Shown here piece by piece: positions 14,375-41,651 of a DNA stretch of 42,642 bases. The stretch is from an uncultured Gammaproteobacteria bacterium (GTDB lineage: Bacteria; Pseudomonadota; Gammaproteobacteria; Arenicellales; JAANXG01). The position numbers and the translations under genes are program-made. The stretch is from the NCBI GenBank assembly GCA_947259175.1, contig CAMYKW010000029.1, positions 1-42,642 of the forward strand, in the 5' to 3' direction. Positions within the stretch are counted from its first letter, which is position 1; each line of letters starts with the position of its first letter. Below the pieces are notes generated by a model, which was given only the letters and a program-made list of their open reading frames with translations, was not told where the DNA came from and made no database searches.

Positions 14375-14379
14375 TCTGA

Positions 14380-23904: not shown

Positions 23905-24888
23905 ATGCGAATTCATATAACCACCGCCATCGGCAACTTCAAAGACAAAGCCGTTGCCAGGGGCGTTTGGTGGCGATACGCCGCCTGCTTGAGCGCTCAT
24001 GTTTTTTTGACCAGCTGCGCGATGTTCGACGCCAACACACCGCGCTGGGAGGACTTCGCCGGCTCGCCCCCAAGCACGAGCACGATAAATCTCAACCACC
24101 AACAAACCGGTCACGGTGACCCGGTGCTGCTGATACACGGATTCGGAGAAAGCGCTTACACCTGGCGCCATGTTGTCCCTCACCTGGCCCGGCGGTACCG
24201 CGTCATTGCCATTGACTTGAAGGGTTTCGGCGACTCGCCCAAGCCGCGGGACGGCGCCTACCACATCTATGAAAACGCGCGCGCGGTGCTCAAGTTCATA
24301 ACTGATCATGACTTGCGCAATATCACGCTGGTAGGACATTCCCTGGGTGGCGGCGTAGCGCTGGTCGCCGCGCTGTACCTGGAAACGCAGTCGCCGAATC
24401 GGCTGTCGCGTCTCATCCTCATCGACAGCATCGCCTACCGGCAGACCTTGCCGCTGTTTATTCGCGTTCTGGCGACCCCCGGTGTCGGGCCGCTGCTGGT
24501 TCGACTGCTGCCCGAAAGGACCCAGGTCAAGTCCATCCTGAAACTCGCCTACCACGATGATGACGCAATTCCGGACGATGCGATTGATACTTACGCCCGC
24601 CTGCTCGCGAGTCCCGGCGCAAAAGAAGCCGCGTTGCAGACCGCACGCCAGATCATCCCGGCGGACGTGGAAGATCTGTCCCGAAAATACGCGGACGTTT
24701 CGTCGCCCACGCTGATACTCTGGGGACGGGAGGACCGGATCGTGCCGCTGTGGGTCGCGGAACGGCTCAACGCCGCTGTTCCCGATTCGCGTCTGGAGGT
24801 GCTGGATGATGTCGGCCACGTGCCCCACGAGGAGGACCCGTCCCGGACGCTCGAGGTGATAGACGCTTTTTTGCGCGAGCCCAGGTAG
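23905..24888 (+). CDS. Alpha/beta hydrolase, possible lipoprotein
   Basis: Hydrolase of about 327 residues: PVLLIHGFGESAYTWRHVVP (oxyanion HG), LVGHSLGGGVALVAAL (nucleophile Ser), ILWGREDRIVPLW (acid Asp) and VGHVPHEE (catalytic His), a complete triad typical of esterases and C-C hydrolases. The N-terminus holds a hydrophobic stretch ending FLTSCAM that could be a lipobox, so it may be membrane-anchored. The start is uncertain: ATG at the left coordinate gives a 35-40 residue leader; an in-frame ATG 45 codons earlier is also possible. It is monocistronic, followed 155 bp later by the caspase operon. Confidence 0.85.
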   Translation: MRIHITTAIGNFKDKAVARGVWWRYAACLSAHVFLTSCAMFDANTPRWEDFAGSPPSTSTINLNHQQTGHGDPVLLIHGFGESAYTWRHVVPHLARRYRVIAIDLKGFGDSPKPRDGAYHIYENARAVLKFITDHDLRNITLVGHSLGGGVALVAALYLETQSPNRLSRLILIDSIAYRQTLPLFIRVLATPGVGPLLVRLLPERTQVKSILKLAYHDDDAIPDDAIDTYARLLASPGAKEAALQTARQIIPADVEDLSRKYADVSSPTLILWGREDRIVPLWVAERLNAAVPDSRLEVLDDVGHVPHEEDPSRTLEVIDAFLREPR

Positions 24889-25043: not shown

Positions 25044-26819
25044 ATGGCGGATAAGGCCGCAGTAATCATCGGGGTCGACAAAACGGGTGGACTGCCGAAG
25101 CTCAACTCCGCCGCCGCCGGCGCCAGCGCGGTTGCGGATTGGTTGCAAAGCGAAGGCTACGAGGTCAAATGTCTCACTGATAAATCCGGCCCGGTGCACG
25201 CGCGCGACATCGAAGACGCCGTCGCCGAGCTCGTCACGGTACCGCCCCGGTATCGTCTGCTCGTTGTGTACTTCTCGGGCCACGGCTACTGGCACGCGCG
25301 CGCGGACCTTTGGTTGTTGAGCGGCGCGCCGACAAAAGCAAGCGATGCGATCAATCTCGACGGCGCGATGGATCTTGCGCGCTATTCGGGCATCCCCAAT
25401 GTCGTATTTATTTCCGATGCCTGCCGTTCGATTCCCGACTCGCGAGCCGGCGCCAGGGTTACGGGAATCGATGCGTTCCCCAACCATGCGGATATCAATA
25501 CCGTCTCGAAGATCGATGTGTTCAAGGCCACCAGCGAAGCGCGCTCCGCCTACGAAGGCGACATAGGGGGAAAGCCGCACAGTATTTTAACTTACGCATT
25601 GATGAGCGCGTACAAACAACCCCAGCCCGCGATGATCCACCCGATCACGGCCGGCGGCACGCGACTCTATGTCGTCCCCAACCGCGAACTCGAGACCTAC
25701 CTGCAGGAAAAGGTCAACGACATTCTGGCGGATATCGATATCAATCTAACCCAGAATATCGAGGCCAATGTCCCTTCCAGCGACGATGTATACATCGCAC
25801 GCGTGGGTGCGCCGACACAGCCACTGTCCACCGCACCCACCGGCGGCGCCGGACCGGCGCGCGCCGCCGCGGCTTCGCCGGGACCGAATCCCGGGCGTGA
25901 CGCCGCCGAAACTATTGAACGAACGCTGACCGGCGCGCCCGGTGCGCCCGTCGGGATCGACACGGGGGGAGCGCTGGCCGTGTCGGAAGCGGCCACCGAG
26001 GAAAAACTGCACTCGCGCCTGCCGAACGCGGCGGTGGATCATATGGAGTCCACGGTGGGTTTTACCGTGCACGGCGCGCGGGTCGTCAACGCGGTAACCA
26101 CCAAAGGCGAGGACAACGCCAGCGTCGAGTTGCTCGATCAGGGCAACGGCGCCGACGCCGCTGCGGTCATACGGCTGTGGGACGTGCGTCCCGCCGTGTC
26201 GGTCGCGGTTCAGCTCGAGGACGGCCGGTGCGCGGTACTTGCGGGTTTCAACGGCTACATCGGCCACGCGAGCTTTGACGACCAGGGGCTGGCGAATGTC
26301 AGTTACATCCCCTCCTCGAACCACTGGCGGTGGCAGATGTATGAAAACGAAAAGGCGGCCATCGACAGGCTGCGCGCCCTGGTGGCGCTGGCGGTGGACA
26401 ACAATACGTTTCAGATCCGCTCGGACCGGGAAGCCGATGCCCTCGGCCAGAGAATCCGCATGGGTAAAGGCATCGATCCGACTCTGGGTCTGTACGCGGC
26501 CCACGCCTACTCGCAGGCAGCCAAAGACAACAGCGTGCGCAGCGTGATGAATTACATGCGCGGGGATTTGCAGGCGGACCTGTACGACATCTGGGTCCTC
26601 GCCTTCCGCCGTCCGCACACCGAGTCGGGGGATTACCCGCGCGCGCCGCTATGCCCGATGTTGACCCAGACGTGGAACCTATTACGGCCGCGCGACATCA
26701 CCCTGCCTCCGGTGCTGGAAGCGGCGCTACCGCACTTGTGCAACTCGCTATGGACGACATTCCAACCCGAGGCCGGCGCATCCATTATGCAAGCCATCGA
26801 TACAGGAGAATTACAATGA
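25044..26819 (+). CDS. Caspase-like (C14) cysteine protease with long C-terminal region
   Basis: A 591-residue protein. Residues 1-225 are a caspase/metacaspase-like domain: AVIIGVDKTGGLPKL (first strand), LLVVYFSGHGYW (catalytic His80) and NVVFISDACRSIP (catalytic Cys127), all in register. A Pro/Ala/Gly-rich linker (about 255-300) follows, then an uncharacterised region of about 290 residues containing LWDVRPAVSVAVQLEDG and MYENEKAAIDRLRALVAL. There is no signal peptide, so it acts in the cytoplasm. Prokaryotic C14 proteases are usually regulated effectors of immunity or cell death, or processing enzymes. Its stop overlaps the start of the next gene by 4 bp (ATGA), indicating coupled translation with the alpha/beta hydrolase. 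Confidence 0.9.
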   Translation: MADKAAVIIGVDKTGGLPKLNSAAAGASAVADWLQSEGYEVKCLTDKSGPVHARDIEDAVAELVTVPPRYRLLVVYFSGHGYWHARADLWLLSGAPTKASDAINLDGAMDLARYSGIPNVVFISDACRSIPDSRAGARVTGIDAFPNHADINTVSKIDVFKATSEARSAYEGDIGGKPHSILTYALMSAYKQPQPAMIHPITAGGTRLYVVPNRELETYLQEKVNDILADIDINLTQNIEANVPSSDDVYIARVGAPTQPLSTAPTGGAGPARAAAASPGPNPGRDAAETIERTLTGAPGAPVGIDTGGALAVSEAATEEKLHSRLPNAAVDHMESTVGFTVHGARVVNAVTTKGEDNASVELLDQGNGADAAAVIRLWDVRPAVSVAVQLEDGRCAVLAGFNGYIGHASFDDQGLANVSYIPSSNHWRWQMYENEKAAIDRLRALVALAVDNNTFQIRSDREADALGQRIRMGKGIDPTLGLYAAHAYSQAAKDNSVRSVMNYMRGDLQADLYDIWVLAFRRPHTESGDYPRAPLCPMLTQTWNLLRPRDITLPPVLEAALPHLCNSLWTTFQPEAGASIMQAIDTGELQ

Positions 26820-27685
26820 GAATACTGATGATTCATGGTCGTGCCCAAGGGGGCAAGGATCCCGACGAGCTCAAGGCGACTTGGATCGACACCTTAAAGC
26901 AGGGTTTTCAGGCTGCCGGCATACCGTTGCCGGACAATATTGAATTTGATTTTCCCTTCTACGCCGACAAGTTGGATCAGTATACCGAACAGGCGAGCCT
27001 GCCAACGCCGGACGAGGTGGTCACCAAGGGACCGGGACAGGACCGGGAATTTGAACAGTTCATGCAGTCGGTGTTGGACGAAATGAAAAACCGCGCCGCT
27101 ATTTCGGACGACGACGTCGCCGCGGAGATGGACGACGGCGACGTCCAGGAGAAAGGGATACAGAACTGGGGCTGGGTGCAGGCCATCGCCCGCGTCATCG
27201 ATAAACACCTCATCGGGGCGTCGGATTTCACCATCGAAACGTTCCTCAAGGACGTTTTCCTGTATGTGAACAAACCGGCGGTCTCCCGCGGCATCAACAA
27301 GATCGTCGAGGAGAAGCTTACCGACGAACCGACCATCGTCATCGGTCACTCCCTGGGGTCGGTGGTCGGCTACAAATGCATCATGGACAACCTGGACAAG
27401 CTAAAGCTCGTCAAGTACATCACCATCGGCTGTCCGCTGGGAATTAAGGCGATCAGCAGCAAACTCGGCCTGCTGCAGAATCCCGGCGGCGCCAACGGCT
27501 GGTACAACGCCTACGACGAACGCGACGTGGTCGCCCTCAATCCCCTGAATAACACCTATTTCCCCACCGATCCGGCGATCGTCAATAACAACGGCGTGGA
27601 CAACCAGACCGACAACCGCCACGGCATCATCGGCTATCTCAACGACGCCGAGGTGGCGAAGCAGATCGCGGCCGCACTGGGCTGA
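26816..27685 (+). CDS. Alpha/beta hydrolase coupled to the caspase gene
   Basis: A 289-residue cytoplasmic hydrolase. MRILMIHGRAQGGKDPDEL gives the oxyanion-loop HG, PTIVIGHSLGSVVGYKCIMD the nucleophile Ser elbow, and NRHGIIGYLND near the end the candidate catalytic His; YNAYDERDVVALNP may carry the acid residue. It resembles lipase/esterase-like enzymes that act on soluble or membrane substrates. The start is fixed by its 4-bp overlap with the caspase stop and by AGGAG 7 bp upstream; an upstream in-frame extension runs inside the caspase gene and is rejected. The tight coupling suggests equal amounts of the two products. Confidence 0.9.
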   Translation: MRILMIHGRAQGGKDPDELKATWIDTLKQGFQAAGIPLPDNIEFDFPFYADKLDQYTEQASLPTPDEVVTKGPGQDREFEQFMQSVLDEMKNRAAISDDDVAAEMDDGDVQEKGIQNWGWVQAIARVIDKHLIGASDFTIETFLKDVFLYVNKPAVSRGINKIVEEKLTDEPTIVIGHSLGSVVGYKCIMDNLDKLKLVKYITIGCPLGIKAISSKLGLLQNPGGANGWYNAYDERDVVALNPLNNTYFPTDPAIVNNNGVDNQTDNRHGIIGYLNDAEVAKQIAAALG

Positions 27686-27806
27686 GGTGTGGGCGGATCG
27701 ATCAACGGCGCGTCGAGCTGAATACTCAGGCGACGCGGGTTTGCGCAACCGTGCCTAATCGGTCGTTAGTTACGCACGATCCGCGACACAGCGGGGAAAC
27801 TTGCCA

Positions 27807-29291
27807 ATGAATACTCCGCTCGTCGCGCCCGACTGGTACGGCCGCCTCAATGTAACCGGGCATCGTCCTGAAACGCAGCCGACGCCTGCGAGCGGTCTGT
27901 GGATGATCGTCTACGACGACTGGTTCGATCAGGAGAAGCGCGCCGGTGACTCCGCACTGTTTGATGAGGTGTTTGCGTTCCGGCGCCATGTGCAGGAGAA
28001 ATTCCCAGGCGCCTTGAGTTTCGAATTCCTGCCCTTGATCTTCGTGCGCGGTTCCCAGGCCGACGTCCAGTCGTTGACCGGCGTGCCCCGCTTCAGGTAC
28101 GCGATTCCCCAGACCGTGGATGTCGCGGACTACCTGCCGATTCTGCAAGGGATCAACGCGCTGCGCTCGGAAACCGGGCACCAACTCTATGAGTGGCAGG
28201 AATTCGTCAACAGCGGCGGTGAGCTTCCCGACGATAAGTTTGTCGGCGGCCAAATGCCGACGCGGGAGTACCCGCCGCCGCTCGACGCGAAGCACATCGT
28301 AGCCGACACTTCGACTCCTCGTGCTGCGTCCCCGGCGTGGATGCCGGTGATCAACCTCAGTCTCGGGCCGATGCTGCCGGAGAGCCCCGCCAATCCGGTG
28401 TTGTTTGCATTGAGCGCCGCCGCCAACACCCACCTGGTGGTGGTCGCGGCTGGCAACGCCGGCGCGCGGGCCGATTCCCCCGGTGTGAATCCGTGGGCGC
28501 CCGCCGGCGCCGCCCTGGTGGTTGGCGCCAGCGAAGACGACGCCGGTACCAAGCTCGCCGAGTACTCATCCAGAGGCAAACCGGAAGATCAACGCAACCA
28601 TCCCGACGTGATTGCTTGGGGTTCGTCGGCCTTGGGCGCCGAACAGGGCACCAGCTTTGCCGCGCCGCGGGTATCAAAGCTCGGTTGCGTCGCGGCCGCG
28701 GCGGCGTTCCAGGCGGCGAGGGTACTGGATGAAGTCAGCGGCCGACCCGCGGGTATACCGCTGGTGGGGTGGGGATTGATCGATACCGGCAGCGAAACCG
28801 CGGCGCTGCCCGCACGCGACGGCGCGTCGGTGCTGCCGTTCGGCGGCGTCCGCGAGCAGGTGCTGCGCGATGCGTGTCACTTCGCGGTGAAAGCCGGCGC
28901 CGAATTTCACTTTTTTTTGAACGGCGCCTTGCTGCGATCGATGATTCTCAAGTCGGCGCGACCGATGACCGGGTACGGCCGCCACGAAGTCGGCGCCGGG
29001 TTTGTCAGTGAAGAAGCGTTTCTGGATTGGCTCGCCCGACAGAGCGTCGGCGAGTTCCTGGAACCGTTCGGACCCGTCGACAAGATACCGGCATCGAGCC
29101 GACGGATGCCGCTGTTCGACCGCGATGCGCTGGCCGAGCTGGCCGCCGCCGTTCGGCGATCGCGACCGACGTGGTTTTTCGATTACCAGCGCCAGCGCTT
29201 CGGCGTGAACCGAACCCCCGCCGAAGGCGAGCTGCGGCTGCCTTCGTCCGGCAGGGGTTACGCCCACGCGATTCACGTGGCCGCCTCCTGA
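27807..29291 (+). CDS. Subtilase-like protein lacking Asp and His motifs
   Basis: About 494 residues. The centre has the C-terminal half of an S8 fold: MPVINLSLGPMLP, LVVVAAGNAGARADSPG (oxyanion Asn), VVGASEDD, EYSSRGKPE and EQGTSFAAPRVSKLG (Ser). Upstream, where the DSG and HGTH motifs should be, there are none; the nearest strings (DVADYLP, IVADTSTP) do not fit. The protein therefore probably cannot work as a normal subtilisin and may be a pseudo-protease scaffold or binding subunit, unless residues come from a partner. The N-terminal 120 residues (LWMIVYDDWFDQEKRAG) and a C-terminal 200 residues are unrecognised. It follows the caspase/hydrolase pair by 121 bp. An in-frame TTG two codons upstream is an alternative start. 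Confidence 0.8.
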   Translation: MNTPLVAPDWYGRLNVTGHRPETQPTPASGLWMIVYDDWFDQEKRAGDSALFDEVFAFRRHVQEKFPGALSFEFLPLIFVRGSQADVQSLTGVPRFRYAIPQTVDVADYLPILQGINALRSETGHQLYEWQEFVNSGGELPDDKFVGGQMPTREYPPPLDAKHIVADTSTPRAASPAWMPVINLSLGPMLPESPANPVLFALSAAANTHLVVVAAGNAGARADSPGVNPWAPAGAALVVGASEDDAGTKLAEYSSRGKPEDQRNHPDVIAWGSSALGAEQGTSFAAPRVSKLGCVAAAAAFQAARVLDEVSGRPAGIPLVGWGLIDTGSETAALPARDGASVLPFGGVREQVLRDACHFAVKAGAEFHFFLNGALLRSMILKSARPMTGYGRHEVGAGFVSEEAFLDWLARQSVGEFLEPFGPVDKIPASSRRMPLFDRDALAELAAAVRRSRPTWFFDYQRQRFGVNRTPAEGELRLPSSGRGYAHAIHVAAS

Positions 29292-29491: not shown

Positions 29492-29689
29492 ATGTCGACG
29501 CTGCTCGGATCGCTTCACAAGCGCTTCAAGCGAAGATCCACCGAGGTCATCGATTCTGAGCTCCTAGGGGAACTTTCGATTCCGATTACGGCCGCAGTGG
29601 ACCCGCCCTTTTTGCGTTGGAGGACAGTCTGTCTCAGACAAGGAATTCACGACCAGAATCAAAACCGCAATCGTGAGCAAGGAGACTGA
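29492..29689 (+). CDS. Possible small basic protein at the head of the Cys-rich gene cluster
   Basis: A 65-residue open frame with GGAG 6 bp before its ATG, ending just before the next gene, whose ribosome site (AAGGAG) lies in its last codons. The N-terminus is basic (GSLHKRFKRRSTEV); there is no recognised motif and codon use is mixed. Position and ribosome site favour a real gene; sequence character does not settle it. Confidence 0.35.
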   Translation: MSTLLGSLHKRFKRRSTEVIDSELLGELSIPITAAVDPPFLRWRTVCLRQGIHDQNQNRNREQGD

Positions 29690-29691
29690 CC

Positions 29692-30153
29692 ATGTACCAC
29701 TCAAATGCCATGTATTATCCAACCCCCTGCCACCCCTGGCCACCCTGCGACCCTTGCGGGTGCGCCCCGTGCTGTTGCGGGCCGGTCACGCTGCCCGCGA
29801 ACACCTGGTGTCCGCCGCAGGCTTACACCCTTCCGGTGAGATTCCCGGTGGTCGTGCCAAAGGAAGTATCAGTTGACAGCAGCGCCACTCTCGCCACGGC
29901 GGAGGCGCTCATCGGCGGTAACTCTCAAGCGCATTTAACACTGGAGTATCTCCCCGATGCGACGGCAACCACGCGAACAATTGACGTGACCATCGAAGCG
30001 GACGGATCAACCTCGAGTTGGAGCGAAACCACGATCACCGACGGTTATCAGGTCAAATCCGATTTCATCGCCGTTGCCCCCGGGTCAAAGGTCACGCTCA
30101 ACGCCACCAATGTGGCGGCGCGTCTGCGCTGGTGTGAAACCGTTTGCTGTTAA
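29692..30153 (+). CDS. Cys/Pro-rich protein with ARLRWCE beta-domain
   Basis: A 153-residue protein of two parts. Residues 1-40 are rich in Cys and Pro (eight cysteines, for example CDPCGCAPCCC). Residues 75-153 are a beta-rich domain: AHLTLEYLPDATATT, TDGYQVKSDFIAVAPGSKV, and NVAARLRWCETVCC at the very end. The same domain, with the same ARLRWCE terminus, ends the next protein. No signal peptide is visible, so reduced cysteines in the cytoplasm or metal binding are likely. The gene has AAGGAG upstream and is 22 bp from its paralogue. I do not recognise the family; a structural or metal-binding role is inferred. Confidence 0.82.
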   Translation: MYHSNAMYYPTPCHPWPPCDPCGCAPCCCGPVTLPANTWCPPQAYTLPVRFPVVVPKEVSVDSSATLATAEALIGGNSQAHLTLEYLPDATATTRTIDVTIEADGSTSSWSETTITDGYQVKSDFIAVAPGSKVTLNATNVAARLRWCETVCC

Positions 30154-30175
30154 TTCTTACCAGGAGAGTGACACG

Positions 30176-30826
30176 ATGTACACCATGAAACCCAGTCGAT
30201 CTTTTTACTCCGGGTCGCATATGCACGCACATCACCATGCCGGGGCACCGATGCCCATGCACGGCTATCACCCCCACGCCGGCCACGGCTTTTGTCACTC
30301 GTGCTGCCACCCGCGCACGAAGTGCTGCTGCGTACGAAGGGATTGCCGCAAGGAAGCGAAAGAGCTGTTGGTCGAATCGACCGTGGCACTCGGCGACAAG
30401 GGCGCCGTCGCCACACACAACATCGAGCATCATATCCAGATCATGACACCGGTGCTGGCCACCATCACGGAACCACTTGCGGAGGAGGCGGTGGAAGAAA
30501 CCGGCACACCGGCCACTACCATTGGACGATTAGTGGGATCGCGCCAGAAGGCCAAGGCCGGATTGGGCAAGGCGTTTATAGGCGGTGGCTGCTGTGTCCA
30601 CCTGTCCATCGAATACGCGCCGACCAAGGCCGCGGGTCCCCACGCCGTCGCAGTAATGGTCGTCGACAGCGACAACACCGCGCTCATCTGGGTGAAGCTG
30701 GCGCAAGCTGATGACGGCTATCAGATTAAAGAAGGGATCATCGCCACCAAGCCCGGCGCCCACGTAACGATGCTGGTCGTCAATATGACCGCGCGGCTGC
30801 GCTGGTGCGAAATATTCAGCTGCTAG
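30176..30826 (+). CDS. His/Cys-rich paralogue with ARLRWCE beta-domain
   Basis: A 216-residue protein. Residues 1-60 contain 11 histidines (HMHAHHHAG, HGYHPHAGHGF) and seven cysteines (CHSCCHPRTKCCC), a likely metal-binding patch. A middle helical part (RKEAKELLVESTVALGDKGA) is followed by CCVHLSIEYAP, DDGYQIKEGIIATKPGAHV and the terminal TARLRWCEIFSC, aligning with the preceding protein over about 75 residues. The start is the ATG after CAGGAG; an in-frame extension upstream overlaps the previous gene and is rejected. The two genes arose by duplication, with different metal-rich N-termini. No enzyme motif. Confidence 0.83.
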   Translation: MYTMKPSRSFYSGSHMHAHHHAGAPMPMHGYHPHAGHGFCHSCCHPRTKCCCVRRDCRKEAKELLVESTVALGDKGAVATHNIEHHIQIMTPVLATITEPLAEEAVEETGTPATTIGRLVGSRQKAKAGLGKAFIGGGCCVHLSIEYAPTKAAGPHAVAVMVVDSDNTALIWVKLAQADDGYQIKEGIIATKPGAHVTMLVVNMTARLRWCEIFSC

Positions 30827-30850
30827 AAGAAAACACGCTTGGAGAAGGAT

Positions 30851-31396
30851 ATGGCCACGAAAAAGACTGCCAAGAAAACCCAACGCAAACCGGCGGCGGC
30901 GGCGAAGGCGGCCCCAACCGCAGCCGCGTTTCCAACCACCGGTCAGCCGGCCGCGGGCCTCGGCGCCAGTTCCACGCCCGCCATGGGCACACCCTGGGCG
31001 GGCGCCGGGGGCTGGATGCCGCAGGCGCCGGCGATGCCGGCCGGCTGGATGTCCCCGCCGTGGTCGGCAAATCCCTACGCAGCCGCCCAAGCGGCGCTGC
31101 CGACGGCAATGGGCGGTGCGGCGGAGCAAGCAGCGCCGATCTCCCAGGGCATCGGATCGGCGTTGCGGCTCGCGGTGGATTTGATCAATGCCAGCCTGGC
31201 CGGCGGCACCCGTCTGCTGGCCGGGACCGCCTACCCATCGCCTTACGGATATGGCGGCGGCGCACACGCGCATGGTTGCTGCCATGACGGCTGCGGCGGC
31301 TGCGGCTCCAGTTGTTGTTGTGAATACGTCGACTGTTGCAGCGTGTGCGGCAGCGGCTGTGGGTGCTGCACACCCAGCGTCGGTAATTGTTGCTGA
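30851..31396 (+). CDS. Lys/Ala-tailed protein with Cys-dense C-terminus
   Basis: A 181-residue protein in three parts: a lysine/alanine-rich N-terminus (ATKKTAKKTQRKPAAAAKA), a Pro/Gly/Trp-rich middle with an amphipathic helix (ISQGIGSALRLAVDLINASL), and a C-terminal 40 residues with 15 cysteines (HGCCHDGCGGCGSSCCC, then CCSVCGSGCGCC). ATG with GGAGAAGGA upstream; an upstream in-frame TTG is less likely. The HGxCHDxxGC motif after a helix recurs in the 86-residue protein further along. Lysine-rich tails also begin two other proteins of this region and could bind DNA or a polyanion such as polyphosphate (inference). Confidence 0.82.
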   Translation: MATKKTAKKTQRKPAAAAKAAPTAAAFPTTGQPAAGLGASSTPAMGTPWAGAGGWMPQAPAMPAGWMSPPWSANPYAAAQAALPTAMGGAAEQAAPISQGIGSALRLAVDLINASLAGGTRLLAGTAYPSPYGYGGGAHAHGCCHDGCGGCGSSCCCEYVDCCSVCGSGCGCCTPSVGNCC

Positions 31397-31442
31397 ACAA
31401 AATCGGTGCCGACCGCCGCAGCACAGGACGAGGCGCCGCTAC

Positions 31443-31470
31443 CTTGCGATGCGCTGACGCGCATCGCAAG
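31443..31470. other. Perfect 12-bp hairpin with TGAC loop
   Basis: CTTGCGATGCGC and GCGCATCGCAAG pair exactly around a 4-base loop, in the 201-bp gap between the Cys-dense protein gene and the next gene. There is no T-run after it. It could be an mRNA processing or attenuation structure that lowers expression of downstream genes, or a REP-like element. Confidence 0.5.
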
Positions 31471-31597
31471 CTGAGTTACGCGCACTCGCCGCGCCTGAGT
31501 CCTAGAGCGATTGATGAGTGCGTGCGGCGGCGCCCGGGATAGTGACAGTCGGTCCGCGGCTCGCTGCCCGGGCCGATATGGTATGAAGGAGTAAAAC

Positions 31598-31813
31598 ATG
31601 CCGTCTCATATGAATTTAAAAATTCGGCTTGGACCTCTGGTGACGCTCGAAGTCAGCGGTGACAACTGTGAAGAGCTGCGCACCGCCCTGGACGGATTCA
31701 AACCGCTGAACCAGCAAATAGACGCGATGTGCAGCGACCTGGCGGAGCGCATGTATCCGGAAGAATCCGGGCTGCCCGAACAACGCGATGACGGTGAGGA
31801 GGATGCGTCATGA
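31598..31813 (+). CDS. Small acidic protein
   Basis: A 71-residue protein preceded by a strong AAGGAG 7 bp upstream. Residues 5-25 form two strands (NLKIRLGPLVTLEVSGDNC) followed by a helix (CEELRTALDGFKPLNQQIDA), and the C-terminus is acidic. No known domain. Its stop overlaps the next start by 4 bp (ATGA), so it is translationally coupled to the following gene and likely its partner in the cluster. Confidence 0.75.
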   Translation: MPSHMNLKIRLGPLVTLEVSGDNCEELRTALDGFKPLNQQIDAMCSDLAERMYPEESGLPEQRDDGEEDAS

Positions 31814-32244
31814 AGTTCAAGGCCTATGGAAGAATGCAAAGCGCACCGACGGTAGAGCTCGACGCCAAGATCGATCCGCTCAAGTTGGATACCACCGCCG
31901 GCGGCTCATTACAGGGTCAGGTAGGACCGTTCGTCGCGCGGGTGGGGGAAATTCCGATCCGGGTGACCGTCCCGTTCCTGCGCAGAAGACGGCCGGTGCT
32001 CGCTTCCGTCGGCGGCTTCCGCATTAAACTCGACGCCGTTCAGCTCGAGGTGGCGAGCGCCGCAGTCGACATCAAGGGGGTGGTGGGCGCCGATGGCATC
32101 GACATGAAGGCGAACGCAAAAGTGGACTGCGACACGGATATGAAGGTCAAGGGCTGGGCCTCCGGGCAAGTCAATCTGCCCACGGTGGATTTGGGCGAAG
32201 AGCCTGAGCCCGAGCCCGAGGACGATGAGGCGGAAATCCAGTAG
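31810..32244 (+). CDS. Beta-rich protein with acidic tail
   Basis: A 144-residue protein starting in a 4-bp overlap with the preceding gene. It shows regular alternating strands (KIDPLKLDTTAGGSLQGQVG, GGFRIKLDAVQLEVASAAV, GADGIDMKANAKVDCDTDMK), a basic RRRR turn and a Glu/Pro tail (GEEPEPEPEDDE). The pattern suggests a beta-barrel or beta-sandwich that may assemble. No signal peptide, no enzyme motif, family not recognised. Confidence 0.75.
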   Translation: MKFKAYGRMQSAPTVELDAKIDPLKLDTTAGGSLQGQVGPFVARVGEIPIRVTVPFLRRRRPVLASVGGFRIKLDAVQLEVASAAVDIKGVVGADGIDMKANAKVDCDTDMKVKGWASGQVNLPTVDLGEEPEPEPEDDEAEIQ

Positions 32245-32265
32245 GCCTGGGGTGAGGTTACCGCG

Positions 32266-32976
32266 ATGAGAGACATTGGACACCCGTGCCACCCCTGTCA
32301 TCCGCCGGTGGTTCACCATACGGTGGTCTGCCGCCATCAGGTGGAGGTCGAGGTGCTACCGGCCGCCGCCGAGGTGTTTTTCGCCGACGAGCGCTATACC
32401 AACCCGTGGGATACCCAGATACGGTTTAAAGCCGTCGTCTACAACGCGCCGACGAGTGATGTCACCTGGGAGGTGACCGACCTTGGGGGCGGTCCGGGCG
32501 CCGGCAGCATCGACACGAGCGGCTTGTACACCGCGCCGCCGAAGGGCGCCCTCACCCATGGACATACCGACATCGTCGTCGCCACCGCGGCGGCGGACCC
32601 GATGCGCCGCGCCTACGCCTTCGTAACTCTGGTGGGTTTGGGACCGGAACCCGAACCCGACCCGACGCTGGAGATTTTCCCGCATACGGCGACCTTGTAC
32701 TATCACCAAGGCCACGACAACCAGTACATCGACACGAGCAACAAGAGCCATCGCTTTCGCGCCCTGCTCAAATATACGCCGTTGACGGGCGTGGAGTGGA
32801 GCATCAACGGTGGTAGTTGGACGCCGGACGGTCTTTACTTTTTCTACCAAACCCCCAACAGCGGTTCATCACCCGCGACTGCCACTGTGCGAGCACGCCT
32901 CACCGGCGACAGTTCGGTGCAGGATGAAGTGGAAATTACTTTACTCAATTATGAATGGCCGGGCATTAAGCCGTAA
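32266..32976 (+). CDS. Two Ig-like domains behind a Cys/His N-terminus
   Basis: A 236-residue protein. It begins MRDIGHPCHPCHPPVVHH, a small metal-ligand-rich tip of the kind seen in its neighbours, followed by two bacterial Ig-like (BIG-type) repeats: VTWEVTDLGGGPGAGSIDTS then GLYTAPP, and VEWSINGGSWTPDGLYF. The two repeats are joined by an acidic EPEPDP linker. Such domains usually mediate adhesion or assembly; here there is no signal peptide, so the assembly would be cytoplasmic. GGTGAGG precedes the ATG. Confidence 0.8.
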   Translation: MRDIGHPCHPCHPPVVHHTVVCRHQVEVEVLPAAAEVFFADERYTNPWDTQIRFKAVVYNAPTSDVTWEVTDLGGGPGAGSIDTSGLYTAPPKGALTHGHTDIVVATAAADPMRRAYAFVTLVGLGPEPEPDPTLEIFPHTATLYYHQGHDNQYIDTSNKSHRFRALLKYTPLTGVEWSINGGSWTPDGLYFFYQTPNSGSSPATATVRARLTGDSSVQDEVEITLLNYEWPGIKP

Positions 32977-33009
32977 CCGCAGCGCAATCTTGAACGAAGG
33001 AGCACCCTC

Positions 33010-33780
33010 ATGGGCAGCATAAGTATAACCAATGATCCGGTCAATATCAGAATAAAGGATGACTCCAAGCTCACGCTCAAAAACGACTCCGCATTAACGA
33101 TTAAAGACGATTCCAAACTCACGCTGCAACGCGTCAAGGACATTGATCCGATCGCCACGCATATCAAGGAAGTCAACAACATCGACCCATTTTCCATCGA
33201 ATCGTTTCACGTCGATGAGATCAGGAACATCGAGCCGATCCAGATTGCCAAGTTCAACGTCACCAACCTGCCGCCGGTCAATGTCAGTCTGCGCCAGCTC
33301 CCTCAGGTCGACATGAACGTGCGCACCCTGCCGCCGATCTCGGTCGGCACCCATCAGGACTTTTGCATCCCATCGAGCTACACGCTGCGCGCCCAGTTAC
33401 TCGGTTTTGAGCTGCTCAGGCTGCACCTCAACGGACAAACCTCGGTGATTCCAAAGGAGCGGGCGCGGCGGGAGCAGGCGCGCACCGCCGATAAGAGCTT
33501 CCCGGTCACCAGCGTCGCTGGAAACCCGGCGATCCCGTCGATTCGCGAGGAGACCGGCGATACGACCGAGTCGTCACCGCACGCGTTGCACCATGCGTCC
33601 GTGGCCCACACGCCGCAGAAGCATCTGCAACACCTCCCCCAGGGAGAATCCGCCGTGCATGGCGCCGCGCCCGCGGCACCCGGCGCCTTGTCGTTCGGGC
33701 TTCCGCGAATGTCTTTCAGTATTGCCGACGCCGGCGCCGGTGAGGCCGAGTCGGACAGTCAAATATCCAGTGGAGAATAA
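33010..33780 (+). CDS. Beta-repeat (solenoid-like) protein
   Basis: A 256-residue protein. Residues 8-40 contain three near-identical short repeats of the form I/L-K-D/N-D-S-x-L-T-L/I, the DNA repeating with them, followed by a longer run of 12-15 residue steps with the x-I-x-P-I/V-x-V signature (NNIDPFSIESFHVD, RNIEPIQIAKFNV, LPPVNVSLRQLPQVDM) that looks like a beta-solenoid or stacked strands. A single cysteine in HQDFCIPSS precedes a helical and then low-complexity C-terminus rich in His, Ala and Pro. No enzyme motif, probably structural. AGGAG 7 bp upstream. Confidence 0.8.
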   Translation: MGSISITNDPVNIRIKDDSKLTLKNDSALTIKDDSKLTLQRVKDIDPIATHIKEVNNIDPFSIESFHVDEIRNIEPIQIAKFNVTNLPPVNVSLRQLPQVDMNVRTLPPISVGTHQDFCIPSSYTLRAQLLGFELLRLHLNGQTSVIPKERARREQARTADKSFPVTSVAGNPAIPSIREETGDTTESSPHALHHASVAHTPQKHLQHLPQGESAVHGAAPAAPGALSFGLPRMSFSIADAGAGEAESDSQISSGE

Positions 33781-33782
33781 TC

Positions 33783-34043
33783 GTGAACCATTGCCATCCC
33801 CATACGACGTGCGAAACACCCATGGCGGCACACCAACCGAACCTGGTGGACGTGCTGGGCGGCGCCATCAACCTGGCCACTACGGTGCTCTACGGGCAGG
33901 CCAGAGTCCTGCGGTCCATCGTCGAAGGCGCTGTGTGGCACGGAGAATGCCATGACCACATCGGCTGTTGCTGCCACCACGCGCACCATGTTGTCCACGT
34001 TAAGTGCGTCCCTGAGACCTATGACTGTAGAAGGTGTTGTTGA
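33783..34043 (+). CDS. Small Cys/His-rich protein with central amphipathic helix
   Basis: An 86-residue protein that starts at GTG with GGAG 8 bp upstream. It contains ten cysteines and ten or more histidines: NHCHPHTTC at the N-terminus, then a helix (LVDVLGGAINLATTVLYGQA), then HGECHDHIGCCCHHAHH and CRRCC at the end. The helix and the HGxCHDxxGC block match the C-terminal part of the Lys/Ala-tailed protein, so the two are paralogues over that region. A metal-binding or disulfide-cross-linked component is likely. The next gene follows 3 bp later. Confidence 0.78.
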   Translation: MNHCHPHTTCETPMAAHQPNLVDVLGGAINLATTVLYGQARVLRSIVEGAVWHGECHDHIGCCCHHAHHVVHVKCVPETYDCRRCC

Positions 34044-34046
34044 GCC

Positions 34047-34784
34047 GTGGCCAGGAAAACTGCAAAAGTGACAACCACCAAATCCAAGACTACGGCGAAA
34101 ACCGGAAACGCTTCCACCGGGCGCGGGCGATCGGCGGGCAAACAAAAAGCCGCCGCGGCATCTGCCGAAAAACACAACGACACATCCCATACCTATGTGG
34201 AGCAGATTGAAGAAATGCTGAACAAGGGCATGGATTTAACGGAAGCGGGAGTCGGCCTGGGGGTCAACGTCGTCACGCGGTTGAGCTCGATCTTCAAAAC
34301 CCAGGTGGTGGACAAGCTCATCAACGAGCAAACCCTGGGCGCCATCTCCACTCTGGCATCGCAACCGGCCGCGCCCCAGCCTCACCCCGCGGAAATGCCG
34401 CCGGAGCCAGGCCACGAGGCCTCGCAGCAAGACACGGTGCAGCAAGACGCGAATTTCCTGATGAACCGTCTCGGCGCCCATCCGGGCGGCCCGGTGTCCA
34501 TATCTTTCTCGATCAATAACGATTCCATGGCCGAGAAAAAACAGATCAAGTTGAGCATCGAGGACTTCCGGGGGCAAGGGCAGCAAATTCCGATCCCCGC
34601 AAATGCGTTCTCGGTGACGCCATCCAGGAAATCGATTGCACCGATGGATTTCGAAAAATTTGTTTTCAAAGGCGCCATCCCTGCGGATGCGCCGAACGAC
34701 ACCTACCATGGAGGCATTGTGGTATCGGATGATGAGCAATACCGGATACCGGTGGTCCTGGTCGTCACCGAATCCAACGATTGA
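34047..34784 (+). CDS. Lys/Thr-tailed protein with helix bundle and beta-sandwich
   Basis: A 245-residue protein starting at GTG. The N-terminus is basic and low-complexity (ARKTAKVTTTKSKTTAKTG), then long helices (YVEQIEEMLNKGMDLTEAGV, VVTRLSSIFKTQVVDKLI), a Pro/Gln linker, and a C-terminal Ig-like sandwich (VSISFSINNDSMAEKKQIKL, YHGGIVVSDDEQYRIPVVLV). The basic tail resembles those of the Cys-dense protein and the subtilase, suggesting a shared polyanionic target. No signal peptide and no enzyme motif. It is the last large gene of the cluster. Confidence 0.78.
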   Translation: MARKTAKVTTTKSKTTAKTGNASTGRGRSAGKQKAAAASAEKHNDTSHTYVEQIEEMLNKGMDLTEAGVGLGVNVVTRLSSIFKTQVVDKLINEQTLGAISTLASQPAAPQPHPAEMPPEPGHEASQQDTVQQDANFLMNRLGAHPGGPVSISFSINNDSMAEKKQIKLSIEDFRGQGQQIPIPANAFSVTPSRKSIAPMDFEKFVFKGAIPADAPNDTYHGGIVVSDDEQYRIPVVLVVTESND

Positions 34785-34908
34785 CGGTGGATCCCCAGCA
34801 TGATGCGGATTCTGGACGCTCCGCGGGCCGGCCGGTGAAAACCAGACAGCGATGGTTAATACTCTCAATTGAAATGAGCGTCATCCACGTGAGTGGGAAG
34901 GAGCAGCG

Positions 34909-35085
34909 ATGGCTGTAAATGTACTGACATCTTTTACCCGGGTCATCAACAAGACTGTTACCGAGATCTTGGATAACGGGGTGATAGACAAGGCGACTGA
35001 CGCCCTGGGCACTTTCGTCACCGCCGGGGTAACGGCGATCAAGGAGGTCACGGAGGAAGAAAAAACCAACGGCAACGGAGAATAG
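34909..35085 (+). CDS. 58-residue helical protein at the end of the cluster
   Basis: A short gene with GGAAGGAG 6 bp before the ATG and a TAG stop. The product (NVLTSFTRVINKTVTEILDN, then VIDKATDALGTFVTAGVTAI) is one or two amphipathic helices with an acidic tail, similar in character to the helices of the two preceding proteins. It probably packs with them. Short but well supported by ribosome site, codon use and spacing. Confidence 0.7.
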   Translation: MAVNVLTSFTRVINKTVTEILDNGVIDKATDALGTFVTAGVTAIKEVTEEEKTNGNGE

Positions 35086-35127
35086 CGCCAACTCTCGAAG
35101 CAGGCTTTGGGGTTGAACTTCAATCTG

Positions 35128-35150
35128 CGCGTCCACGCCCCGGGGACGCG
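35128..35150 (+). terminator. GC-rich hairpin after the cluster
   Basis: CGCGTCC and GGACGCG form an exact 7-bp stem 43 bp after the last cluster gene, in the gap before the oppositely oriented VOC gene. The following bases are only moderately T-rich, so it is a weak intrinsic terminator at best. Confidence 0.35.
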
Positions 35151-35300
35151 GTGCGCGTTTGCTGAGCAGACGCCGACATTTCCTTCAAGCGGCTGACATC
35201 AGATCAACTGATCGGCACATGATCAATCTGTGCGTGTGCTATTTTTTTCGCCGCTTTGTGCAGGTATTGAGGCGATTGTATTGCACAAAAATACGAGCGC

Positions 35301-35681
35301 TTATTCTTGGGCAGGAAAATCGATATGAATGTGGTTCCTGTCCGGGTCCCATAAGTTGATCTGGACAAGGTTGAACGAGGAAAGATCCGCACGCCGGTAA
35401 TGCTCTTCCATGGCCTGCAATTTCGCCTCAAATTGGGCGAGGCCAGTAGCGGAGAATGCAAAGTGCTCAAGCTTCAGGCCGGCCTCTGATCCAACTCGAG
35501 GAGTGCCGTCAACGCCAACCAGATGCACAGCAGCCGCATCGCCAACGTACATCCACGCGCCAGGAAATGAGAAGTTCGGGCGATCTCCCCTGCGCATACC
35601 GAGAACATTTGTGTACCAGTCGATCATAATATCGAGTTGAGTGGTACGTAAATTAACGTGGTCGAGTTTTACAATCTGCAT
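35301..35681 (-). CDS. VOC-family (glyoxalase/bleomycin-resistance-like) protein
   Basis: A 126-residue single-copy vicinal-oxygen-chelate protein. MQIVKLDHVNLRTTQLDIMI is the first beta-alpha module with the metal His, GLKLEHFAFSATGL the second, and LWDPDRNHIHIDFPAQE the terminal strand with the second His and Glu ligand. These proteins act as metal-dependent lyases, dioxygenases or drug binders; nothing identifies the substrate. Codon use is more AT-rich than the genes to its left, and a dispersed repeat lies 30 bp upstream of its start, so this marks the edge of a different genomic segment. Confidence 0.88.
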   Translation of the reverse strand: MQIVKLDHVNLRTTQLDIMIDWYTNVLGMRRGDRPNFSFPGAWMYVGDAAAVHLVGVDGTPRVGSEAGLKLEHFAFSATGLAQFEAKLQAMEEHYRRADLSSFNLVQINLWDPDRNHIHIDFPAQE

Positions 35682-35710
35682 CGCGACTATCCGATAGAGT
35701 TTGCTACCTA

Positions 35711-35726
35711 AAAAGGGGTCGGTGAC
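35711..35726 (+). repeat. Dispersed repeat copy AAAAGGGGTCGGTGAC
   Basis: An exact 16-base match to the arms of the palindromic repeat at 41568-41651. This is a lone arm in an AT-rich gap between the VOC gene (minus) and the cyclase gene (plus). REP-like repeats with such GGGGTC cores are often left by REP-associated transposases; none is encoded in the window. Confidence 0.75.
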
Positions 35727-35864
35727 TCTTTGTATTTTAATTCCTTAAGTTGTAACAACGAAACATATTAGATTGTTCTTATAAACGGTCAATTGTCGAG
35801 TTGTCGGTAAATATAGGCACCGTAGTACCATAGGCATACCTCCAATTCTCTTTAACATCTGACG

Positions 35865-37760
35865 ATGGCTGAAGACCGTCTGCCTCGCAAACTTGTCGCG
35901 ATCCTGCATGCCGATGTCGCGGGGTATAGCCGCCTGAGCGGAGAAGACGAAGACACCACTCATCGCCGATTGAAGGAATCCCTGACCCTGATTTCCACTA
36001 CCGTTGACCGGCATAACGGCCAGGTTGTGAACTACGCCGGCGACGCGGTACTCGCGCGGTTCGATGCCGCCGTCGACGCGCTGGCCTGCGCCACCGCCAT
36101 TCAGAAAGTACTCAAGGACCGCAACTCCAATGTGCCCGATGAGAGAAAAGTGGAATTTCGCATCGGCGTAAACCTTGGTGATGTGATCGAAGATCAAGGT
36201 GACATCTACGGCGATGGTGTGAATGTCGCCGCCCGCCTGGAACGGCTAGCCGAGCCCGGTGGGATCTGTATTTCGGAAGCCGTGCACACTGCGGTCGGGA
36301 ACAAGCTGTCCGTCGGGTTTGCAGACATTGGCGAACAGCAGGTTAAGAACATCGAGAAGCCGGTGCGTGTTTACCGCGTTCTCTTGGCAGCGGAGGCCGC
36401 GAGCAAAGCGGTTATTCAGCCCCGGCTACGAAAGGGGGGGTCGTGGCGATGGTTCGCGGTGGTCTCGAGTGTGATCGTGTTCGTTGCCGTGGCCGGTATA
36501 GTGGTGTGGCAGCAATCGTGGCGAAGCGCCGTCGCACCGCCAGCGGTGGAGGGCATCGCACATTCGCTACCCGATAAACCCTCTATTGCCGTATTGCCCT
36601 TTACCAATATGAGTGGAGATCCGGATCAGGAGTATTTCGCTGACGGGATTACCGAAGACCTCACCACAGATCTTTCCAAACTATCAGGATTGTTCGTCGT
36701 CGCCCGCAATTCAAGTTTCACATATCGGGGGAAGGCTTTGGATTTGCGGGAAGTTTCGCGCGAACTTGGAGTACGCTATTTGCTGGAGGGAAGCGTACGA
36801 CGCCGGGGAGAACAAGTTCGTATTAATGCACAGTTGGTAGACGGGGTCACCGGAGGACATTTATGGGCTGAACGATTCGATGGTGCGATGTCGAACATTT
36901 TCCAGTTGCAGGATGATGTTAATCAGAGCATCGTAGAAGCCCTTGCCGTCAGTCTTACGCTCACTGAACGCGAGCAACTCGATAGAGTTGAAACTGTCAG
37001 TTCTGCTGCATACGATGTATTGTTGCGTGGATTAGAACAATTTCATCGCTCTTCTCGCGAGACAACGCTTGAGGCGAGAACATTGTTCAAGCAAGCAATC
37101 GAGTTAGATCCGAATTATGCGAGAGCATATGCGAACGTTGCACTAACCCATGCGTCGGATGTTAATTTCCTTTGGACGGATAACAAGGAGGAGTCAATTC
37201 GACTCGGGTTGGAGTACGCGGCGAAGGCAATTGAACTTGACGACAGAATCCCTCAAATCTACTTCACTCGAAGCGCACTATACTTAGCACAACGAAAGCA
37301 CGACGCCGCCATCGAGGCAGCCCGTCGGATCATAGAGGTTCATCCGAATTACGCGGACGGTTATGGAATGCTCGCTTTTGCTTTGTGTTTTGGAGGATAC
37401 CTTCCGGAAGCACTTGAAGCCATTAGAAAGGCAAAGAAGATAGATCCGCAGTTTACCTACCTGGATTTGGCACTTGAGGCCCGCACACTGTTTTTATTGA
37501 AACGTTACGACGAGGCAGTTGGCATAATCGAAGACAGCGTGTCGCGAAATCCCGCTTACGATCGGACACAGCTACTACTTGCTGCGATTTATGCGCAGAT
37601 GGGTAAACTAGAGGACGCCTCTTGGGCGGTCGAGGAGGCAATGCTGATTAAACCAATAATTTCTTTGGAATACGAGCGGCGCGAGGCGTACTACAAAAAC
37701 GCGGAGGACTTGGAGCATTACATTAGCGCCTTACGCAAAGCGGGCGTCCCTGATACGTAG
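35865..37760 (+). CDS. Adenylate/guanylate cyclase with TolB-like and TPR domains
   Basis: A 631-residue class III cyclase receptor. Residues 8-170: LVAILHADVAGYSRL (metal Asp), VVNYAGDAVLARF (second Asp) and GVNLGDVIEDQGDIYGDGV. A transmembrane segment (WFAVVSSVIVFVAVAGIVVW, about 195-215) separates it from a TolB/FlgO-like domain (SIAVLPFTNMSGDPDQEYFA, YLLEGSVRRRGEQVRI) and then TPR repeats to the end (FKQAIELDPNYARAYAN, AAKAIELDD). The cyclase is cytoplasmic and the rest periplasmic. The product is likely cAMP, which could be read by the cyclic-nucleotide-binding phosphatase in this window (inference). Third-position GC falls clearly in the TPR half. Many proteobacteria carry several paralogues of this architecture. 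Confidence 0.9.
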   Translation: MAEDRLPRKLVAILHADVAGYSRLSGEDEDTTHRRLKESLTLISTTVDRHNGQVVNYAGDAVLARFDAAVDALACATAIQKVLKDRNSNVPDERKVEFRIGVNLGDVIEDQGDIYGDGVNVAARLERLAEPGGICISEAVHTAVGNKLSVGFADIGEQQVKNIEKPVRVYRVLLAAEAASKAVIQPRLRKGGSWRWFAVVSSVIVFVAVAGIVVWQQSWRSAVAPPAVEGIAHSLPDKPSIAVLPFTNMSGDPDQEYFADGITEDLTTDLSKLSGLFVVARNSSFTYRGKALDLREVSRELGVRYLLEGSVRRRGEQVRINAQLVDGVTGGHLWAERFDGAMSNIFQLQDDVNQSIVEALAVSLTLTEREQLDRVETVSSAAYDVLLRGLEQFHRSSRETTLEARTLFKQAIELDPNYARAYANVALTHASDVNFLWTDNKEESIRLGLEYAAKAIELDDRIPQIYFTRSALYLAQRKHDAAIEAARRIIEVHPNYADGYGMLAFALCFGGYLPEALEAIRKAKKIDPQFTYLDLALEARTLFLLKRYDEAVGIIEDSVSRNPAYDRTQLLLAAIYAQMGKLEDASWAVEEAMLIKPIISLEYERREAYYKNAEDLEHYISALRKAGVPDT

Positions 37761-38396
37761 GTCAACTCATCGTAAGCTATTCAATGACGGTCCTAATCGA
37801 AGAAGCGGACATCCATAAGCCCGGCGTACAACTTCCGTTTAGGATCGGTGGAGCATTGGGGTTGCGGCACAGCAACTCGTTTTGATGTTACACAGGAAGA
37901 TCCGCAATAGGCACTCTCCGGACGAATGGGTTTTATTCTCGAATTGCCTGCTTTGGGCTGCCAGTGAGTGTTGTCGTCGTTATTGATGAAGGCATCGTGG
38001 ATGAACGCAAACCGTGACCGCTACGTGTCTCTGTTATCACATCTTCAGGGATCAACTCTTGATTGGTAGCAATGAAAGACCTCGCGAATGACTCCGTGAA
38101 TTTATTTGCCACGGCCCACGGGGTACACTTTACGCCGGGTTGCCGGGACGCGTTGCAGGTTATTCCACCTCGCGGCGCGCAGGCGTTGACGCGAAGCACA
38201 AAACACAGCATTCCGGGACGCGCCAACCTTTGATCAATAGGACAAATAGCCGCGGCCCGGGCCCGCTGGCATTCTCGGCGAATCCACATCTTATGACCGC
38301 ACGTTGTGTGCCCGCCGATAGGCGCTGCTTCGCAGCATGGCATTGGCGGGCAACATTTTGATCAACTGGGAGCACAATCCTTTAACCCGTATAGCG
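37761..38396. other. Intergenic region without a clear gene
   Basis: About 640 bases. A minus-strand open frame (37933-38343) and fragments on the plus strand exist, but I recognise no domain, start or ribosome site. It may hold decayed accessory DNA. Upstream of the next gene an alternative start lies at 38337. Confidence 0.35.
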
Positions 38397-40187: not shown

Positions 40188-40363
40188 CCGCCTCGTTTGT
40201 CGGGATTGAAAGGTCACTAAGGAGCAATGCCGTGAATAATAATATCGATTGACAGCGGCAGGTATCCAAAACACCATCGGACGCGAGTTTCCGCCTCCAG
40301 CACGAGAGCGCGCAAGATAGTAACCCCGAAAACACGACAGCTTTTCGTTATTGATAAACCACA

Positions 40364-41602: not shown

Positions 41603-41651
41603 GAAAAAGGGGTCGGTGACGAATGAGAATCATTTGTCACCGACCCCTTTT
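41568..41651. repeat. Tandem repeat plus long palindrome at the glycosyltransferase 3' end
   Basis: A 31-base unit starting AAAAGGGGTCGGTGAC occurs at 41568-41598 and again at 41605-41635. The second copy is completed by GTCACCGACCCCTTTT (41636-41651), so bases 41605-41651 form a near-perfect hairpin: a 16-bp outer stem, a G-T pair, and an inner AATGA/TCATT stem with GAA loop. The hairpin ends in TTTT and can act as a terminator for the glycosyltransferase gene. A lone 16-base copy lies at 35711. It resembles REP elements; no transposase is present. Confidence 0.8.

Follow-up and report, generated by a model that had tools for sequence, protein, structure and literature searches.

The closest described counterparts of the locus considered here are bacterial granule coats, spore appendages and protein compartments. 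The coats of polyhydroxyalkanoate (PHA) granules include phasins such as PhaF, whose DNA-binding part is lysine-rich. In the account given in PMC5658603, PhaF joins a granule-binding amphipathic helix to a DNA-binding domain, and helices of PhaP1 have a hydrophobic moment of 0.34-0.40. Ena/DUF3992 appendage proteins are counted in PMC12921279, while the cargo classes of encapsulins set out in PMC8346489 include DyP peroxidases and polyprenyl transferases. In a 42,642-nucleotide stretch of DNA from an uncultured gammaproteobacterium (contig CAMYKW010000029.1; hereafter the window, meaning the whole stretch), we analysed a cluster of ten genes, g2-g11. These genes are one unit. We rate as about an even chance the reading that their products are the structural components of a body inside the cell, the likeliest case being the surface coat of a hydrophobic inclusion (a granule of the PHA, lipid or isoprenoid type).

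The ten plus-strand open reading frames (ORFs), at 29692-35085 in the ORF listing, lie where the initial annotation had placed a run of ten or more short genes:

g2, 29692..30153, plus strand: Cys-rich N-terminus (8 Cys in residues 1-40) and predicted C-terminal beta jelly-roll domain ending ARLRWCETVCC
g3, 30176..30826, plus strand: His/Cys-rich N-terminus and paralogue of the g2 jelly-roll domain
g4, 30851..31396, plus strand: Lys-rich N-terminus, amphipathic helix, Cys-rich C-terminal tip
g5, 31598..31813, plus strand: small acidic protein
g6, 31810..32244, plus strand: beta-rich by eye, acidic tail
g7, 32266..32976, plus strand: Cys/His N-terminal tip and probably two immunoglobulin (Ig)-like domains (domain number by eye)
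g8, 33010..33780, plus strand: short repeats (beta-like by eye) and conserved core PxxYxxxxxLLGxE...GxxxVI
g9, 33783..34043, plus strand: amphipathic helix and Cys/His-rich tip
g10, 34047..34784, plus strand: Lys-rich N-terminus, amphipathic helix, C-terminal domain Ig-like by eye
g11, 34909..35085, plus strand: short amphipathic helical protein

Homologues of all ten, each at E 1e-6 or better, occupy one strand of a 6.7-kb stretch (8476-15147) of L007, a contig of the metagenome-assembled genome 'bacterium isolate DBS2-1.bin101'; none of eight flanking window genes, the neighbouring caspase and subtilase among them, matches there at E 1e-3, and none of 500 shuffled cluster proteins does. It is because all ten genes recur in L007 while the flanking genes do not that we call g2-g11 one unit. 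The order in L007 is g5, g6, g7, g8, g9, g10, a flavoenzyme gene, g11, g2, g3, g4, which places the g2-g4 block at the opposite end relative to the window. A second locus, L015, in genome G339, a relative of L007's genome, keeps the L007 order from g7 on and carries eight of the genes (g7-g11 and g2-g4); its contig starts 70 bases before g7, so that g5 and g6 are beyond its reach. In both loci the flavoenzyme lies between g10 and g11 and exceeds the NCBIfam cut-off for TIGR02032 (geranylgeranyl reductase family). Window and L007/L015 proteins are about 31-60% identical over their aligned parts, and the set has therefore been held together over a long time. Both loci have homologues of g2, g4 and g9, as well as of g3 (42% identity to L007, 48% to L015), g7 (47-52%) and g10 (39% and 36%, respectively); the values to L007 for the smaller or less conserved members are 43% over 54 residues for g5, 36% over 137 for g6 and 34% over 50 for g11.

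Third-position GC is the highest of the three codon positions in nine of the ten genes (0.68-0.77), g5 being the exception (0.62, against 0.67 at position 1) with weaker coding support, and most starts follow a GGAG-, AGG- or similar stretch, judged by eye. An extra ORF at 29492-29689, the first in the range that had been annotated, is doubtful (third-position GC 0.59; best match in the six other loci only E 0.43).

None of the ten proteins has a Pfam or NCBIfam match that reaches a curated cut-off, as expected from the initial annotation, which had recognised no enzyme domain in them; an NCBIfam match of g6 to an FAD-binding protein (E 0.0012, 17.8 of 675 bits) was dismissed. No signal peptide is apparent by eye at any N-terminus, again as annotated. 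PHROGs, which come without cut-offs, match g7 to an Ig-domain family (E 6e-4) and the other cluster proteins at E 0.035 or worse; the Ig-like and solenoid-like repeats claimed earlier thus find little support, with one PHROG match for g7, appearance for g10, and g8 not modelled. The proposed paralogy holds for g2 and g3 (35% over 101 residues, E 1e-15); the g4 and g9 helices are likely to be related in the same way (hhalign P 4e-5, probability 70%, 23 columns). Two motifs had been singled out for checking: ARLRWCE is retained (as ARVRWCE in two) in all six g2/g3 proteins seen, whereas HGxCHD, present in g4 and g9, is not retained in their homologues.

The metal-ligand-rich tips described earlier are evident in the composition, Cys accounting for 7.2% of g2, 5.1% of g3, 8.3% of g4 and 11.6% of g9, against 0.0-1.1% of the eight flanking proteins, and Cys and His together for 25.6% of g9, 13% of g3 and 10% of g4. 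Such values would suit a particle for metal storage or handling, whose zinc, copper or iron would be held by the Cys/His-rich proteins and whose shell would consist of the beta proteins. We consider such a particle improbable, given that Pfam and NCBIfam revealed no metal transporter or sensor in the cluster, that only some Cys positions in g4 and g9 are conserved among their homologues, and that the enzymes neighbouring the genes in relatives point elsewhere.

Four genomes of the window's class carry a reduced, diverged set that includes the g8 family (each given along transcription):

L016: g8, Ig-like protein, helix+Cys+Ig-like protein, helix+Ig-like+Lys-tail protein, helix+Lys-tail protein, polyprenyl synthetase, TIGR02032 flavoenzyme
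L026: g8, Ig-like protein, helix+Cys+Ig-like protein, helix+Ig-like+Lys-tail protein, PHA synthase
L021: g8, Ig-like protein, helix+Cys+Ig-like protein, alpha/beta hydrolase, cholesterol-oxidase-like GMC enzyme, Lys-rich protein, an unknown, DyP-type peroxidase
L008: g8, Ig-like protein, helix+Cys+Ig-like protein, helix+Ig-like protein; on the opposite strand a DUF362 protein rich in Lys, a protein that looks like an epimerase by eye and one with weak SRPBCC likeness

The g8 family is the only one common to all seven loci, and the seven-sequence alignment has seven invariant columns. Its pairwise matches reach E 3e-29 among the reduced sets and only 0.002-0.014 between the window and L026; the first single-sequence match had E 7e-4, and a three-row profile lifts the locus of genome G104 to E 4e-12. 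Four protein kinds are related among the reduced loci by tblastn, with some of the weakest pairs giving no match. The layout of g10 recurs in proteins of L008, L016 and L026, and the order after g8 runs in parallel (helix+Cys, helix+Ig-like+Lys, enzyme), which we offer as an observation, not a test.

In L026, the PHA synthase gene lies on the same strand about 80 bases past the last structural gene; its product matches PF07167 at E 4e-55 and solved PHA synthases at E values down to 5e-88, scores 594 bits with the NCBIfam class II model, below the cut-off of 855, and is the sole PhaC_N match in that genome. The L016 synthetase (6402-7343) matches PF00348 at E 5e-27, and among NCBIfam models it scores highest with the family-2 encapsulin cargo polyprenyl transferase, at 79.5 bits against a cut-off of 450. 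For L021, the cholesterol-oxidase-like enzyme was matched at E 4e-71 (240 of 850 bits) and the DyP-type peroxidase at 106 bits in NCBIfam (cut-off 100.5) and below the cut-off in Pfam. Of the six loci other than the window's, five (two belonging to related genomes) have a probable hydrophobe-metabolism enzyme following the structural genes in the run. This runs contrary to a purely non-enzymatic set: in its relatives, enzymes of lipid or isoprenoid type stand within the module or directly after it. The combination of helix, Lys tail and PHA synthase in one run points to a granule; geranylgeranyl-reductase-family flavoenzymes together with a polyprenyl synthetase suggest isoprenoids, subject to the halogenase likeness discussed below; and the cholesterol-oxidase-like enzyme points to sterol-like substrates. 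A hydrophobic body is the best reading of what these enzymes have in common.

From the gene context and domain layout, that is, from the conserved gene set, the sequence features and the enzyme neighbours in relatives, we infer how such a coat might be built. The conserved all-structural set, the Cys/His tips, the modelled jelly roll and the probable Ig-like domains fit a self-assembling, possibly cross-linked intracellular structure. The short amphipathic helices of g4, g9, g10 and g11, with hydrophobic moments of 0.42-0.47 (g4 0.42, g11 0.47), would rest on the hydrophobic surface, and the Lys-rich ends of g4 and g10 would attach to a polyanion, for instance the nucleoid or polyphosphate. 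The jelly-roll (g2, g3), Ig-like (g7, g10) and g8 repeat proteins would form an outer lattice, which the Cys/His tips of g2, g3, g4, g7 and g9 might lock through metal ions or disulphides. In the relatives, the hydrophobe-metabolism enzyme of the same gene run would work on or in the body. Such a coat would be phasin-like and cross-linkable, with exchangeable enzymes.

A number of results weigh against an inclusion coat. The window's cluster itself has no hydrophobe enzyme, and the 124 bases between g10 and g11, where L007 and L015 have the flavoenzyme, hold none. Four carrier genomes (G102, G104, G331 and G339) have no PhaC_N match, and PHA is therefore not the content everywhere; PhaC_N is matched twice elsewhere in the window's own genome and at least once in each of 11 relatives without g10. 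None of the ten window proteins matches the phasin Pfam families PF05597, PF09361, PF09602 and PF09650, as listed in PMC5658603, at E up to 1, and none of the relatives' proteins scanned does at E up to 0.1. The best segments of control proteins come near those of the cluster (SpoIIE 0.37, hyd 0.37, caspase 0.34), and the segment of g10 with the best moment differs from its most hydrophobic helix. The TIGR02032 flavoenzyme of L016 matches solved FADH2 halogenases nearly as well as an archaeal lipid reductase, and enzymes of this type therefore need not act on isoprenoids. L008 has no clear hydrophobe enzyme. Its linked DUF362 gene is on the opposite strand.

The kinship of the loci is also less secure than their layouts may suggest. 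In the reduced sets, proteins are called Ig-like because of their appearance and of Pfam matches that stay below cut-off, and a search of the window's genome for the helix+Cys+Ig-like family found none. Compared with the families of the reduced sets, g10 gave P 0.12 against the helix+Ig-like+Lys profile, not significant although the same helix was aligned, g9 gave P 0.03 (probability 1.5%) against the helix+Cys+Ig-like family, g7 gave P 0.08 against the Ig-like family and g4 gave P 0.91 against the helix+Ig-like+Lys family. With such weak profile links apart from g8, to speak of the same module beyond L007 and L015 rests on g8 and layout. Finally, since G331 and G339 are related genomes, L007 and L015 are not independent.

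Two neighbours of these loci have Lys-rich ends of their own. Just before g5 in L007, the protein encoded at 7679-8404 has a strongly Lys/Arg-rich C-terminal tail and no NCBIfam match, and may be an extra module member; adjoining the reduced module of L008, the DUF362 protein at 11104-13614 has a Lys-rich N-terminus of about 90 residues. In L007, an isoprenoid synthase at 6823-7749, proposed from a look at its motifs, found no support from Pfam, NCBIfam, the PDB or comparison with the L016 synthetase, and was not counted.

The jelly-roll domain of g2 is the only part of the cluster that could be modelled; the predicted model of g8 has a mean predicted local distance difference test score (pLDDT) of 33, and no fold was assigned. 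In the AlphaFold model of g2, a disordered Cys-rich N-terminus (residues 1-53, pLDDT under 50) precedes an eight-stranded sandwich (57-150; block means of 79-90 pLDDT over 61-150). The best VIA-align row is GITRL (Z 8.6, root-mean-square deviation 2.6, 90 residues), followed within one Z unit by a protease domain, Cry1Ca, C1q (Z 8.0) and other TNF-like domains, a Z near 8 being the level that the tool terms a 'common arrangement'. A fold missing from that list may still apply. It is fair to call the modelled domain a jelly roll of TNF/C1q appearance, from which a function does not follow. Jelly-roll domains of this kind often form trimers. Against viral structures, the best rows for g2 include giant-virus collagen-like proteins with low template-modelling (TM) scores, into which we read nothing.

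A rival reading is a cross-linked fibre or coat, assembled in the cytoplasm and displayed outside or on a resting cell in the manner of the BclA nap or of the Ena appendages of Bacillus endospores, whose jelly-roll subunit has a Cys-bearing N-terminal connector. Both g2 and g3 combine a Cys-rich N-terminus with a predicted jelly roll that has Cys near its C-terminus, and Ena subunits, according to PMC8619143, bond to others through connector cysteines. Foldseek lists ExsF for g2 (9h3d, E 5e-4, rank 29, TM 0.28) and VIA-align lists BclA (2z5w, Z 7.6, 94 residues, root-mean-square deviation 2.6); however, unrelated sandwiches are listed as well, with unrelated proteins scoring equally high, and the g2/g3 profile had no PDB sequence match at E up to 10. 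Furthermore, a displayed fibre would leave the amphipathic helices, the Lys tails and the relatives' enzyme neighbours unexplained, and no export signal was seen by eye. We therefore regard it as unlikely.

Upstream of the cluster, on the same strand and outside the module, lies a trio of genes (25044..29291):

25044-26819, plus strand: caspase
26816-27685, plus strand: alpha/beta-hydrolase-like protein
27807-29291, plus strand: subtilase-like protein

The caspase passes its Pfam cut-off and remains below that of the EACC1-type caspase model (35 of 140 bits), whereas the hydrolase is of the alpha/beta type by eye (GHSLG), with no Pfam match above cut-off. The third protein aligns to solved subtilases over residues 179-288 only (Asn and GTS-A-P serine), and the term 'pseudo-subtilase' is plausible because the Asp and His regions were not found in that alignment. 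The initial annotation had suggested that trio and cluster may form one system, for example a protease-triggered structure that assembles or is cut in a defence or cell-death response. Their adjacency in the window speaks for this, as do the absence of g10 and of the caspase from five genus-mates each (see below) and the caspase-alpha/beta-hydrolase pairs that PMC7159879 describes in conflict systems. Nevertheless, the trio was found beside the set in none of the six other loci: L007 has the whole set without homologues of any of the three, and L008, L015, L016, L021 and L026 gave no tblastn match to them. Among 18 genomes searched for the caspase (including G331, G339, G102, G104 and G539, and excluding G196), it was found in the window's genome only, and 400 bases separate the subtilase gene from g2. 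PADLOC, to which five of the ten cluster proteins were submitted, matched the caspase and subtilase only, and no NTPase or EACC1 core component was identified beside the caspase and hydrolase. A joint system is thus very doubtful, and the trio is most simply a separate conflict-type accessory operon that adjoins the cluster.

The module is rare. A search for g10 in 60 genomes, which included five members of the window's genus and seven of its family, was positive only for the window's own genome, and a search of genome contigs revealed no other locus; the equivalent contig search for g8 yielded one locus, L007. A single-sequence search found g8 in 2 of 274 genomes of the class, and small profiles found it twice each among 146 relatives of G331, 114 relatives of G102 and 398 genomes of the phylum, where each count includes a known carrier and the genome samples overlap. 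The helix+Cys+Ig-like family, which ends in an H-x-W-Y-D-H-F-like motif, was found in 3 of 369 and 3 of 279 genomes. Five genus-mates (completeness 74-97%) lack g10 and five lack the caspase, so module and caspase both look accessory in the window, and co-acquisition there is compatible with this. The patchy distribution suggests that the module was transferred or repeatedly lost. Linked to the module loci, no mobile gene was seen, although no systematic search for such genes was made. Viral contigs held no relative of g8, g7 or the g2/g3, g10 and helix+Cys+Ig-like profiles; plasmids gave no match for g8, g3, g7, two helix+Cys+Ig-like proteins or the subtilase, and phages none for g3. A phage or plasmid origin was rejected on these searches, made with selected members and not all ten.

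Some further features of the window may be recorded. The 17-base motif AAAAAGGGGTCGGTGAC occurs in four copies with at most one mismatch (35710-35726, 41567-41583, 41604-41620 and 41636-41652), against 0.01 occurrences expected with at most two mismatches; three of the copies form a direct plus inverted cluster at 41.57-41.65 kb, and the motif looks like a small dispersed repeat. Other repeats in 20000-42642 are weak pairs. GC content is 0.56-0.64 in the cluster and falls to 0.48-0.56 after it (35000-42000), possibly at an island border. Five promoter-like sites were observed, one of them on the plus strand, against 2.2 expected (standard deviation 1.6), and four terminator-like sites against 6.5 expected; Rfam models matched nothing in 20000-42642, and no tRNA gene was found anywhere in the window. 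Farther upstream, a SpoIIE phosphatase with a cNMP-binding domain, a STAS protein and a HATPase (20213-22402) form a partner-switching regulator, and a membrane protein and alpha/beta hydrolase pair (22529-24888) is kept in a member of the same family (L057, 9393-11293; 51% and 60% identity), whose 19.9-kb stretch has no homologue of the caspase trio or of the cluster.

Taken further, the inclusion coat might be a new kind of organelle: a portable, cross-linked coat whose gene set distant bacteria reuse round different hydrophobic contents (polyester, isoprenoid or sterol-like), the enzyme being swapped at a fixed place in the gene order. We put this forward tentatively, as a proposal that is rather unlikely to hold. 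If true, bacteria would own a portable coat kit for hydrophobic inclusions beyond phasins, one for isoprenoids included, and we know of no bacterial granule coat for isoprenoids; the set could also provide tags for placing enzymes on droplets, and the bodies should be findable by imaging strains that carry it. At the least, about ten unnamed protein families have been defined, some of which gene context links to lipid enzymes.

Among the known systems, the caspase/alpha-beta-hydrolase conflict operons resemble the upstream trio, but the ten genes have no sequence link to that trio or, for the five proteins searched, to defence models. Ena appendages and the exosporium proteins BclA and ExsF resemble g2/g3 in a Cys-bearing N-terminus and, as predicted, a jelly roll; in contrast, the cluster also has helices and Lys tails as well as Ig-like proteins, with lipid enzymes joining in relatives, and there is no sequence match, g2 and g3 having none at E up to 1 to the Ena family DUF3992 in Pfam. 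Encapsulins offer the idea of a compartment, and their cargo kinds resemble the L021 peroxidase and the L016 synthetase, but they have one shell gene where the cluster would have many coat genes, and the Pfam, NCBIfam and PHROG matches of the ten proteins (sequence models only) include no HK97-fold shell family. Phasins and other PHA granule coat proteins (PhaP, PhaF and PhaM of the carbonosome) differ in that the enzymes vary among the relatives of the module and that PhaC_N is lacking from the four carrier genomes; jelly-roll, Ig-like, g8 and Cys/His-tip proteins are, to our knowledge, not known as granule parts, and a search of one literature library returned no paper joining phasin with an Ig-like domain, phasin and PHA synthase with immunoglobulin-like, or phasin or granule with geranylgeranyl (reductase). 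Common ground between these coats and the cluster would be an amphipathic helix combined with a basic end and the use of several small structural proteins, a likeness that extends in the reduced set of L026, though not in the window, to a place directly beside a PHA synthase.

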